A stretch of 36,577 nt of DNA. Source: Actinomycetota bacterium. GTDB taxonomy: Bacteria > Actinomycetota > CADDZG01 > WHSQ01. The first letter of the stretch is position 1. Each line of letters starts with the position of its first letter. The stretch is taken from positions 1 through 36,577 of the forward strand of contig CADDZG010000001.1 in assembly GCA_902812355.1 (NCBI GenBank). The letters are read 5' to 3'. A program made the position numbers and the translations under genes. The notes beneath the pieces were generated by a model. The model made no database searches and had not been told where the DNA came from. It saw only the letters and a list, made by a program, of their open reading frames with translations. Positions 24,875 through 28,846 of this stretch are shown piece after piece.

Positions 24875-26047
24875 TCACCCGAAGAGGTTGGAGATCGCGA
24901 CGATCGTAGCCGGTAGGACGAACAAGCCCACGGTGAACATCGCCAAGCGGGTGCGGCTCCGCAGCATCTGACGCTGGAAGCGCCAGATGCCCGAGCGCAG
25001 CGGGCGGTAGGCGAACGCCATCAGAGCGAGGCCGACCGCGGTCATGGACACGATCTCCGCCACCATGATCAGCACCGCCGCGGCCGAGTGCACGAGAAAC
25101 GCGATCACGAGCTTGTCGCCGAGCGTGCCGATGTTGGCGCCGATGATGTAGGGGAGGATCTCGTCACGCTTGAGGTAGCCCTTGGCCACCAGCGGCACCA
25201 GCGCGGTCACGGCTACCGACACCGACATCGTCGCGAGGGTGAAGACGATCCCGAGCCCGAACATCGGCCACTTGCGCCTCACCCACGCGAGGCGGGAGCC
25301 GGCGAGATCACGCTCGTCGATGTCGGGGACGAGGGCGTCAAACAGCTTGAACGACACGACGATCAGCCCCAGGCCCCCGCAGAACAACAGCCACCCGGGC
25401 CACGACGCGACCGCGTCGAGCACGGGCCCGTACACGAGGTCGAGGAGGTTGCCGAAGGAGGCCGGGAACATGAGGTGGATGTGGTGGAACGGGGGCCACG
25501 CCAGCAGGCCGAGACCGAGCAGGGTGCCGGGGACGTAGATCGCGGCCGCGGCGAGCAGGGCGATCAGCGCCGTCGACACCGGCGCCATGCGCTTGCCCTC
25601 ACCGCCGCGCAGCGCATACACCACCGCGACCAGCAGGACGATGAAGGCGGCCCCGAGCCGTGACCCGGTGACCATGGTGAAGCCCTGGGCGGTGCTGATC
25701 GTGCCCGCAGCCACCAGGGTCAGGGCGCTCGCCGCGATCGGCGCTCCCGACAGCACGATCATCGCCCCGATCCATCCCAGGCCGAGGGTCGACCCGGCGT
25801 TGCGCACCAGCCACGTGCCCCGATGCAGGAGGTCGAGCTGCCCGGCCCCCTCCTTCATGACCTGCAACGCGCCGACGAACAGCAGCAGAGCCACGAGCGC
25901 TTCGAACGTCACCCACGCGGCGTGGCGGGCCCGTGCGGCCCGTCCGGGCGCCGGCGCAGCGGTTTCGTCCCGTGCCGTGTCCGGCGGGGACGGCTGCGCG
26001 CGGCGCACGGGTGCGTCGGCCTGGGGGCCGGGTCGTTGGTACGCCAT
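24875..26047 (-). CDS. Na+/phosphate-cotransporter-like membrane protein
   Basis: 390-aa membrane protein with about eight helices after a disordered Pro/Ala/Arg N-terminus (1-42). Two inverted repeats of the Na_Pi_cotrans type are visible: SGAPIAASALTLVAAGTIST ending GSRLGA (about 101-134), and SVSVAVTALVPLVAKGYLKR ending in the hallmark GANIGT. The QSSS motifs are replaced, so phosphate as substrate is uncertain. The ATG at 26047 has AAGGGGG directly upstream. It is probably co-transcribed with the 42-codon gene before it (67-bp gap) and the RHH gene after it. Confidence 0.75.
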   Translation of the reverse strand: MAYQRPGPQADAPVRRAQPSPPDTARDETAAPAPGRAARARHAAWVTFEALVALLLFVGALQVMKEGAGQLDLLHRGTWLVRNAGSTLGLGWIGAMIVLSGAPIAASALTLVAAGTISTAQGFTMVTGSRLGAAFIVLLVAVVYALRGGEGKRMAPVSTALIALLAAAAIYVPGTLLGLGLLAWPPFHHIHLMFPASFGNLLDLVYGPVLDAVASWPGWLLFCGGLGLIVVSFKLFDALVPDIDERDLAGSRLAWVRRKWPMFGLGIVFTLATMSVSVAVTALVPLVAKGYLKRDEILPYIIGANIGTLGDKLVIAFLVHSAAAVLIMVAEIVSMTAVGLALMAFAYRPLRSGIWRFQRQMLRSRTRLAMFTVGLFVLPATIVAISNLFG

Positions 26048-26062
26048 GCCCCCTTCCTACAG

Positions 26063-26078
26063 CACTCCTACCGGAGTG
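26063..26078. repeat. Short hairpin between the microprotein gene and the Na/Pi-like gene
   Basis: CACTCC-TACC-GGAGTG, a perfect 6-bp stem with a 4-nt loop, 15 bp before the Na/Pi-like start. No U-run follows, so read-through is likely. Confidence 0.4.
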
Positions 26079-26114
26079 TGCAGCCCGGTCGGCAACCCGG
26101 CGGGGGCGGAACGC

Positions 26115-26243
26115 TCAGCGGGAGCGCGAGCGCAGGTTGCGGCGGGCCTTGACCGAGCGCCAGCGACGCTGACGGGCCGCCTCGCGCCGCAGATCGTGCA
26201 GCCGCTCGTGGGCGATGTCGCCCCACAGGCTGGGATTGACCAC
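26115..26243 (-). CDS. 42-aa Arg-rich microprotein
   Basis: Short ORF of 42 codons with an excellent SD, GGAGGAG 6 nt before a GTG start (within AAAGGAGGAG at 26259-26250). The peptide begins VNPSLWGDIAHERLHDLRRE, a plausible amphipathic helix, and continues as an Arg-rich stretch that ends LRSRSR (15 Arg in 42 residues). It matches no family I know; nucleic-acid or acidic-membrane binding is likely from charge alone. A good -35/-10 pair lies upstream and overlaps a MarR-type operator. A longer ORF in another frame over the same DNA (26057-26302) has no SD and is rejected. Confidence 0.62.
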   Translation of the reverse strand: MVNPSLWGDIAHERLHDLRREAARQRRWRSVKARRNLRSRSR

Positions 26244-26286
26244 GAGCCTCTCCTCCTTTCCGCTTTAGCTAGGCATACTCCAGATA

Positions 26287-26315
26287 AAGATACTTGATAC
26301 ATCGCTTGTAACCAA
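26287..26315 (-). promoter_or_regulatory. Promoter of the microprotein operon
   Basis: Minus strand: TTGGTT (26315-26310), 17-bp spacer, TATCTT (26292-26287). Expected start near 26280 gives a leader of about 37 nt with the SD. The -35 lies inside the CTTG-N4-CAAG operator, so repression by a bound MarR protein would be direct. Confidence 0.5.
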
Positions 26316-26316
26316 G
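26305..26316. promoter_or_regulatory. MarR-type operator 1, CTTG-TAAC-CAAG
   Basis: Perfect 4+4 palindrome with 4-bp spacer. It is embedded in a larger imperfect inverted repeat: AAAGATACTTG at 26286-26296 against CAAGCATCTTT at 26313-26323, 10 of 11 matching. It lies in the AT-rich divergent promoter of the marR gene. Confidence 0.6.
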
Positions 26317-26334
26317 CATCTTTAAGCGGTATTC

Positions 26335-26346
26335 CTTGCGAACAAG
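26335..26346. promoter_or_regulatory. MarR-type operator 2, CTTG-CGAA-CAAG
   Basis: Second copy of the same palindrome with a different spacer. Its centre is exactly 30 bp from that of operator 1, about three helical turns, so both sites face the same side of the DNA. Confidence 0.6.
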
Positions 26347-26376: not shown

Positions 26377-26940
26377 ATGGCGGACCGGCCGAGGCAGGGA
26401 CGCGGGGGAGCGGTGGCGACCGGCGACGGCAAGGATCAGGTCGACATCAACGCAGAGCGCGCGGCGCAGCGCTGGGCGGGCATCGATCCCGCCGTCGAGG
26501 CGATCGTGAACCGCATCTCCAAGACCGCCCGCTACCTCGACCGCATGCTGGGCGAGACCGCCGCGCGCGAGGGCCTCAACGCGAGCGAGTACCGCCTGCT
26601 GGTGACGCTGTGGAAGTCGGGGCCCACCTCACCGGGGGACCTCGGCAAGAGGTTGTTGGTGTCCTCGGGGGTCATGACCAACCGGCTCGATCGGCTTGAG
26701 GAGAGGGGGTTCGTGGCACGGGCCCCTCACCCCTCGGACCGTCGCGGCATCCTCGTGAGCCTCACCGACACCGGGCTTGAGGTCCTGTCGCGCATGATCG
26801 AACGCCAGGCCCGGCGCGAGACGGAGCTGCTGGCGGCGCTGCAGCCGGACGAGCGTGCGGAGCTCAACGCTCTGCTGCGGCGGCTGATGACGTCCTTCGA
26901 TCCGACTATCGCGGTGGAAGAGGGCGGCCTCAGCTCGTGA
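26377..26940 (+). CDS. MarR-family transcriptional regulator
   Basis: 187-aa winged-helix regulator. The core shows ASEYRLLVTLWKSGPTSPGD, then LGKRLLVSSGVMTNRLDRLE (recognition helix) and the wing ERGFVARAPHPSDRRGILVS with the conserved DRR. An N-terminal extension of about 35 residues precedes the first dimer helix. The ATG at 26377 lacks an SD; a GTG at 26413 with GGGGGAG close upstream is the alternative. It is divergent from the microprotein operon and sits beside two matched palindromes, so autoregulation and control of that operon are likely. No cysteine sensor is visible. Confidence 0.9.
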   Translation: MADRPRQGRGGAVATGDGKDQVDINAERAAQRWAGIDPAVEAIVNRISKTARYLDRMLGETAAREGLNASEYRLLVTLWKSGPTSPGDLGKRLLVSSGVMTNRLDRLEERGFVARAPHPSDRRGILVSLTDTGLEVLSRMIERQARRETELLAALQPDERAELNALLRRLMTSFDPTIAVEEGGLSS

Positions 26941-26966: not shown

Positions 26967-27476
26967 TCAGGAGCACACCCGGGGCATGTCCAGCCGCGTA
27001 CCGGGATCGCGGCTGCCCTCGAACTGGATCGTCACCCACACAGTGCCGCCGACCTTCTTAACGCCCACGCCGACGTAGTGGTAGCTCTTGCCGACGATGT
27101 TCGCGTAGTGCTCGGGGGAGTGGAGGAAGGCCTTGTACAGGGCGTCGACCCCACCCCCATAGCCGACGTTCTCGCCGATGGAGGTCCAGCGGGTGACCCA
27201 GCTCTCGAACTGCGACAGGGAGGTGTGGAAGAGGTAGCCCTTACGCACCATCCGACGGTTGTGGTAGCGCGCGGTGTAGCCGAGCTGGGGATCGAGGTGG
27301 AGCGGCCGGAGCCCGCGATAGCTGCGCGTGTGATTGATCTTGGCGGCGAAGAGTTTCTCCGCGGGCTTGAAGCGGAAGCACCCGGAGGCCTGCGCCGGGT
27401 CCACCTGGGACACCGGTGCGAGCGTGGCGACGATCACGGCCGCGGCCAGCAGCAACGGCAGGCGCCTGGCATCCAT
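26967..27476 (-). CDS. Secreted CAP/SCP-domain protein (second copy)
   Basis: 169-aa exported protein: signal peptide (about 1-31, LPLLLAAAVIVATLAPVSQV) and a CAP domain with INHTRSYRGLRPLHLDPQLG, RYHNRRM, SIGENVGYGGG and SPEHYANIVGKSYHYVGVG. It shares domain order with the first copy at 23158 but differs much in sequence. It is convergent with marR and lies downstream of amt on the same strand, separated by strong hairpins. Role unknown. Confidence 0.86.
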   Translation of the reverse strand: MDARRLPLLLAAAVIVATLAPVSQVDPAQASGCFRFKPAEKLFAAKINHTRSYRGLRPLHLDPQLGYTARYHNRRMVRKGYLFHTSLSQFESWVTRWTSIGENVGYGGGVDALYKAFLHSPEHYANIVGKSYHYVGVGVKKVGGTVWVTIQFEGSRDPGTRLDMPRVCS

Positions 27477-27529: not shown

Positions 27530-28846
27530 TCACGTCGGGCTGCGGGTGGCGTGCCCTCCCTGATGCAGCGGAAGATGATGCCGGTGCCCGGCCGAGCGCA
27601 GCGCGGTCGTGGCGATGGGCTCGGTGAAGGCATAGCCGGTCTCCGAGTGCAGCCACACGTCGAGACCGTCGGCCTCGTGCTCGGGTTCGACCCGCAGGCC
27701 CACAGTCGCCTGCACCCCCCGGGCGAGCAGGTACGACGCGCCGAAGGAGAAGAGCCCGGTGGCGGTGACGGCGAGGACCTGGCGGGCTACGAGCCCCAGG
27801 CCGCCGCCGGCGAGCAGCCCGTCGGCGCCGGCGGGGTCGACTGCCACGGTGGCGAACACGCCCGTGAGCAGGGCCCCGAGAGCTCCCCCGACGAGGTGGA
27901 TCCCGCCGACGTCGAGGGCGTCGTCGTAGCCCAGACGGTGCTTGAGCCCGACCGCCCCGGCACACGCGAGCCCCCCGAGCAGACCGATCGCCACCGCGCC
28001 GAGGGGCCCGACGTAGCCGGCTGCGGGGGTGATCGCCACCAATCCCGCGACCGCGCCGGAAGCGATGCCCGACGTGGTCACCCGCCCGTGGCGGATGCGC
28101 TCGTAGGCGGCCCAGCCGAGGGCCCCCGCGGCCGCTCCGGCGTTGGTGGTGACGAAGGCGGTGGCGGCGAGCCCGTTGGCGCCGAGCGCGCTACCGGCGT
28201 TGAAACCGAACCATCCAAACCACAGGATCCCGGCACCGAGGATCGTCAGGGTGAGGTTGTGGGGCACGAAGGCGTCGCGCCCGAACCCCTGGCGGCGCCC
28301 GAGCACGAGCACCACGGCGAGCGCGGCCGCGCCGGCGTTGACGTGGACGACGGTGCCGCCGGCGAAATCGAGGGCCCCCAGCCGGTGCAGCCAGCCGTCG
28401 GGATCGAACACCCAGTGGGCGATCGGGCAGTAGACCAACAGCAACCACGCGCCCGAGAAGAGGACGTAACCGTCGAAGCGCATGCGCTCTGCGAAGGCCC
28501 CGCTGATCAGCGCCGGGGTGATGACCGCGAACATCATTTGGAAGGCGGCGAAGGCGAGGTGGGGTATGCCGGGAGCCAGGTGCGCGTCGGGACGCGCCCC
28601 GACGAGGTGCAGGCCGGCCCAATCGAGCGAACCGATCACGCCGTGTAGGTCGGGGCCGAAAGCGAGGCTGTAGCCCGCCATCACCCACAGGATCGACACC
28701 AGTGCGATGGCGAAGAACGAGTGCATCACGGTCGACAGCACGTTCTTGGCCCGTACCAGGCCGCCGTAGAAAAGCGCCAGCCCCACGGTCATGAACATCA
28801 CCAGGGCCGCCGACGTCAGCACCCACGCCGTGTCTCCGCTGTTCAT
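27530..28846 (-). CDS. amt: Ammonium transporter Amt
   Basis: 438-aa Amt/Mep channel with 11 predicted helices. Signature elements: FYGGLVRAKNVLS, GAFAERMRFDGYVLFSGAW, DFAGGTVVHVNAG (first pore His), WFGWFGFNAGSAL, DVGGIHLVGGALG (second pore His) and the C-terminal LDVWLHSETGYAF. The last 20 residues are His-rich (HRHHLPLHQ). No glnK or glnD follows. The ATG has GAGGAG 6 nt upstream. A GlnR-like operator at 28898-28935 indicates induction under nitrogen limitation. Confidence 0.96.
   Translation of the reverse strand: MNSGDTAWVLTSAALVMFMTVGLALFYGGLVRAKNVLSTVMHSFFAIALVSILWVMAGYSLAFGPDLHGVIGSLDWAGLHLVGARPDAHLAPGIPHLAFAAFQMMFAVITPALISGAFAERMRFDGYVLFSGAWLLLVYCPIAHWVFDPDGWLHRLGALDFAGGTVVHVNAGAAALAVVLVLGRRQGFGRDAFVPHNLTLTILGAGILWFGWFGFNAGSALGANGLAATAFVTTNAGAAAGALGWAAYERIRHGRVTTSGIASGAVAGLVAITPAAGYVGPLGAVAIGLLGGLACAGAVGLKHRLGYDDALDVGGIHLVGGALGALLTGVFATVAVDPAGADGLLAGGGLGLVARQVLAVTATGLFSFGASYLLARGVQATVGLRVEPEHEADGLDVWLHSETGYAFTEPIATTALRSAGHRHHLPLHQGGHATRSPT

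Follow-up and report, generated by a model that had tools for sequence, protein, structure and literature searches.

An arginine-rich 42-codon reading frame divergent from a MarR-type regulator gene very probably encodes a member of an undescribed microprotein family widespread in Actinomycetota

The window, a stretch of 36,577 nucleotides from a genome of the Actinomycetota, contains an intact open reading frame of 42 codons on the reverse strand (26115..26243), with a GTG start, a TGA stop and the predicted product MVNPSLWGDIAHERLHDLRREAARQRRWRSVKARRNLRSRSR. The gene was called from the reading frame, a family profile match and a modeled helix. An earlier sequence-only reading had described an unannotated arginine-rich frame with a strong Shine-Dalgarno (SD) sequence, and both traits were found: AAAGGAGG lies 8 nt 5' of the GTG start (26252..26259, reverse strand), and SD-like sequences also precede the starts of the relatives. 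The peptide has 12 arginines and one lysine versus four acidic residues (net charge +9), and the GC content of the three codon positions, 0.76/0.57/0.90, follows the pattern usual for coding sequence in GC-rich genomes. A single helix spanning residues 4-41 was obtained in the AlphaFold2 model (mean pLDDT 88). The amphipathic start that had also been proposed was not borne out, as the hydrophobic moment of residues 5-22 was equalled by 29% of shuffled sequences.

No match to the peptide was found among the Pfam and NCBIfam models, and a PDB search returned nothing below E 0.6. A weak resemblance to the ArfB tail was set aside as chance. The Rfam and tRNA scans over the whole window were empty. 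A direct search of 60 relatives yielded weak matches only and no close relative of the exact peptide; most of those matches were attributed to chance and lay inside long frames. Only SD-preceded short frames with the motif at their start were kept, a few in number, one of them a second copy in the genome of the window.

On the opposite strand, and divergent from the microprotein gene, lies a gene for a MarR-family regulator of 187 aa (26377..26940, forward; PF01047, E 1.6e-17). Its start is uncertain: the ATG at 26377 has no clear SD, and a GTG at 26413, preceded by GGGGGAGC, is possible. Further downstream, a CAP/YkwD-type protein and an ammonium transporter are encoded at 26967-27476 and 27530-28846 (reverse strand). 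Operator-like sites were found in the intergenic region between the two divergent genes.

The proposed promoter of the microprotein gene was recovered by alignment with orthologous promoters and was not detected by a consensus sigma-70 scan. The candidate −10 element TATCTT (26287..26292, reverse strand) lies within CAAGTATCTT, and the −35 element TTGGTT (26310..26315, reverse strand), which is TTGACA in a relative, is 17 nt away. TTGGTT-N17-TATCTT of the window (26315-26287) aligned with TTGACA-N17-TATCTT of that relative. A TTGAC-type −35 upstream of the microprotein, followed by a −10 at 17-18 nt, was seen in the loci read in detail, and AAGTATCTT at the −10 was common to the window and the MarR-linked loci G006, G007, G057 and L199, the last being closely related to G057.

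Two perfect CTTGN4CAAG sites, the only ones in the window (0.12 expected), were assigned as putative operators, neither of which has a strand. Operator 1, CTTGTAACCAAG (26305..26316), covers the −35 of the microprotein and is enclosed by a 36-bp imperfect inverted repeat (26287-26322). Operator 2, CTTGCGAACAAG (26335..26346), occupies the stretch that separates the microprotein promoter from the start of the MarR gene. The palindromic operator-like site overlapping the microprotein promoter was conserved in the orthologs: of the 19 promoters of the MarR clade described below, 18 carried CTTGN4CAAG with no more than one mismatch (0.65 in shuffles), and in 11 the site was exact (0.01 in shuffles). 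Operator-like sites were looked at in the MarR-linked loci only. The double arrangement occurred once in the 2.43-Mb genome; this MarR therefore has its clearest target in its own divergon. Control of the microprotein gene by the MarR protein, as the earlier reading had suggested, is thus supported by sequence footprinting.

When the GTDB genome collection was scanned with a MarR alignment, 80 named loci were obtained. In a maximum-likelihood tree, the microprotein-linked MarR proteins fell into one clade of 29 rows, including ten from Chloroflexota, with a support of 100/99; long branches, that of the window MarR among them, leave the inner branching order unsure. A divergent, SD-preceded small frame of at least 34 codons accompanied all 19 actinobacterial MarR genes of the clade (18 loci and the window). 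Short divergent frames and CTTGAC-type sites were also present in at least four Chloroflexota rows (L240, L203, L230 and L227) and, by reading the sequence, in a fifth (L214). Only six of the 19 MarR-linked frames scored above 12 bits against the family profile, and four of those six were in the profile; the other MarR-linked frames were recognized from their position, SD and operator, with ortholog pairs as a further guide in some cases.

Among the MarR paralogs outside the clade the microprotein was mostly absent, and the commonest divergent partner was an exporter: of the 30 divergent genes scanned, 16 encode EamA and 4 encode YdcZ proteins. Those MarR-EamA/YdcZ divergons are arranged in the same divergent way, encode related MarR proteins and, at several loci, carry the same CTTGN4CAAG operator-like site, but the partner is an exporter there and a microprotein in the clade of the window MarR. 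The site was seen between MarR and exporter genes at L210, L220, L224, L231, L233 and L247, the taxa being Chloroflexota and Desulfobacteraceae.

The family was collected in three steps: a four-seed profile was run over 297 genomes of the phylum, a 14-row profile was run over 397 genomes, and short SD-preceded frames were scanned mechanically. The profile searches and the scan gave 44 members, and two further MarR-linked ones raised the tally to 46. The members are 28-115 aa long, usually below 90 aa, and share the motif M[HY]P..(5)..A..R...L..EA...R; across the 46 rows, which include the window peptide as a seed, R26 is invariant and A22 is conserved in at least 90%. The median net charge is +7 and the median arginine content is 19%. 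In many Actinomycetota the members start at or near profile position 1 with an SD upstream, and the genome searches required neither. When the sequences were reversed, none of about 2,900 SD-preceded frames reached 15 bits (maximum 10.3), and within the loci L001-L198 the only non-seed frames above 15 bits were five linked to CGNR regulators. The window microprotein carries the N-terminal motif, A22 and R26 included, at profile register 1 and has the form of the family, a separate SD-preceded frame of 28-115 codons. Hence, as far as sequence comparison can tell, it is very probably a member of an undescribed microprotein family that is widespread in Actinomycetota and often encoded opposite transcription regulators.

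The term undescribed refers to Pfam, NCBIfam, PHROGs and the open-access literature searched. The 46 members gave no match to NCBIfam or PHROGs and one marginal match to Pfam (DUF2157, E 0.0056), and no description of the family was found in the open-access literature searched. Plasmid searches for family members gave nothing; a match on a Nocardia plasmid was regarded as chance because it lay within a larger annotated gene on the opposite strand.

Several groups were distinguished within the family. Three WYL-linked members (L123:1501-1707, L126:1474-1677 and L146:1998-2216) share a conserved C-terminal half, RARxARxxFExAxxLExEETWRAVWExLEAP. Another subfamily (L097, L118, L133, L167 and L168) has N-termini like MLTGEMAKxRI and, in several cases, a hydrophobic C-terminus such as AALLSLPFKH; no regulator was seen alongside its members, and some adjoin a large membrane protein. 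Two members (L100:1723-1935 and L135:1158-1385) are next to a gene resembling MobA by eye.

Selection was estimated as dN/dS by the Nei-Gojobori method from pairwise comparisons of members that are linked or similar, the window frame not being among the pairs. The ratio was below 1 in 14 of the 15 family pairs, and the frame, start and SD were kept. The closest pairs gave 0.09 (L199/L200) and 0.10 (L125/L129). Values of 0.23-0.30 were obtained for L204/L205/L271, 0.35-0.58 for L218/L219/L222, 0.13-0.36 for the WYL-linked trio and 0.47-0.61 for three further pairs. The MobA-adjoining pair L100/L135, with a ratio of 1.0, was unlike the others. Most ortholog pairs are under purifying selection (0.09-0.61).

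These data bear on the reading that the frame is spurious and that function is confined to the promoter region of the MarR gene. Short frames are common in high-GC DNA, and the window frame has no close relative for comparison; however, the family profile, the SD, the coding-like GC3, the promoter and operator-like sites on the microprotein side and the dN/dS values below 1 in linked orthologs make this reading extremely improbable. It was concluded that the 42-codon frame beside the MarR gene is very probably a real microprotein gene, and that the earlier reading of it was, as a whole, partly supported.

On the other side of the microprotein gene, 67 nt after its end, lies a gene of the Na/Pi-cotransporter family (24875..26047, reverse strand; PF02690, E 1.7e-11), which is possibly co-transcribed with it in the window. 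The RNA of the gap (26048-26114, reverse strand) folded better than most shuffles (z −2.0) into a hairpin that pairs the SD of the cotransporter gene, and translational coupling of the two genes is possible. The shared strand, the short gap and this fold would also suit a leader peptide or attenuator, the translation of which controls the cotransporter gene. We consider such a role highly unlikely, since the downstream gene is usually convergent in the relatives; in addition, the cotransporter gene is not conserved there as a neighbor, a terminator-like site before it and a conserved downstream gene were sought and not found, and the protein is under purifying selection in the relatives. The mostly convergent orientation of the next gene supports the view that the microprotein genes are stand-alone units.

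Of the 46 members, 19 are divergent from a regulator gene: nine from CGNR/ABATE, four from MarR, three from WYL, two from GlxA-AraC and one from ArsR. Seventeen of these regulators were called by Pfam match, and two, both WYL, by sequence resemblance alone. The remaining 27 members are without an identified divergent regulator, so the placement is frequent and not universal. The proportion of 19 in 46 is not an unbiased rate because most regulator-linked members other than the MarR ones were found by the family profile. Unbiased tests were begun from the regulator genes, which avoided selection on the microprotein. In such a test, 41 genomes provided 27 CGNR genes, some of them near contig ends, and a divergent family member was found at 10 of these genes; five of the ten were new loci scoring 16.7-26.7 bits, and loci without a member scored 6.4 bits or less. 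The genome of the window itself has a second member, of 69 aa (L064:963-1169, forward strand, contig C241), which is divergent from a CGNR/ABATE regulator. The MarR-, CGNR-, WYL- and AraC-linked members likely share one origin, although this falls short of proof because short helices rich in Arg, Ala and Glu could arise by convergence.

That the divergent pairing is constant for MarR genes of the clade and frequent for CGNR genes might indicate a feedback partner that binds its own regulator (MarR, CGNR, GlxA or WYL) as an anti-repressor or co-repressor, and the fast sequence change could then reflect co-evolution with each regulator. The N-terminal motif is, however, common to members beside structurally unrelated regulators, and many members adjoin no regulator; this role was judged unlikely. 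A membrane-active or membrane-bound small protein adjusting a transporter or the envelope is less probable still. It would agree with the hydrophobic C-terminal segment of several members, e.g., RRTIGSGLVRLGLRLAHD, and with the frequent pairing of MarR genes outside the clade with EamA/YdcZ exporters, but the window member has an arginine tail and no hydrophobic segment, and its hydrophobic moment does not exceed that of shuffles.

With moderate confidence, we proposed as the best explanation a real small, basic, helical protein that is the main local target of a divergent, ligand-inducible MarR and acts in trans. The gene, its family membership, its divergent placement and the conserved operator-like sites were established by comparison; the release of repression by a ligand and the action of a basic helix in trans are what we infer from them. 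In the absence of ligand, a MarR dimer would occupy the two CTTGN4CAAG operators, one covering the −35 of the microprotein and the other nearer the MarR start, and both genes would be repressed. A small-molecule signal would free MarR from the operators, and the strong SD would then allow a burst of microprotein. By analogy with the proteobacterial DUF1127 proteins, the product may be a trans-acting adaptor, a basic helix that contacts an acidic partner such as RNA, the ribosome or a protein through its conserved A22...R26 segment and its arginine tail. Because members with the same motif pair with unrelated regulators, a component common to cells is a likelier partner than the regulator itself.

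The DUF1127 proteins (PF06568; YjiS, Agrobacterium SDPs) are likewise very short and arginine-rich, with several copies in some genomes, and the window peptide shares this trait (42 aa, 12 Arg). They contain about 14% arginine and have been discussed as RNA- or protein-binding, an interaction with PhoR having been shown (PMC12501420). They differ, however, in motif and in phylum, being proteobacterial, and none of the 46 members matched PF06568 at E 0.01. The ABATE/CGNR proteins (PF07336/PF11706), which have been proposed to be stress-induced transcription regulators (PMC2954205), were in many cases found opposite genes of the same microprotein family, although their fold is unrelated to that of MarR; no microprotein partner of theirs was found in the open-access literature searched.

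More tentatively, and as a possibility short of being probable, one rapidly evolving family might serve as a shared output module of unrelated MarR, ABATE/CGNR, GlxA-AraC, WYL and ArsR regulators in Actinomycetota, and in Chloroflexota within the MarR clade, acting on one common cellular target and taking the place that an exporter has in the related MarR divergons. The family is absent from Pfam, NCBIfam and PHROGs, and many of its members are apparently ligand-regulated. If the proposal is true, the family would supply the target genes that are missing for many orphan regulators of Actinomycetota, the poorly understood ABATE/CGNR proteins among them, and would offer a testable actinobacterial parallel to the DUF1127 proteins.
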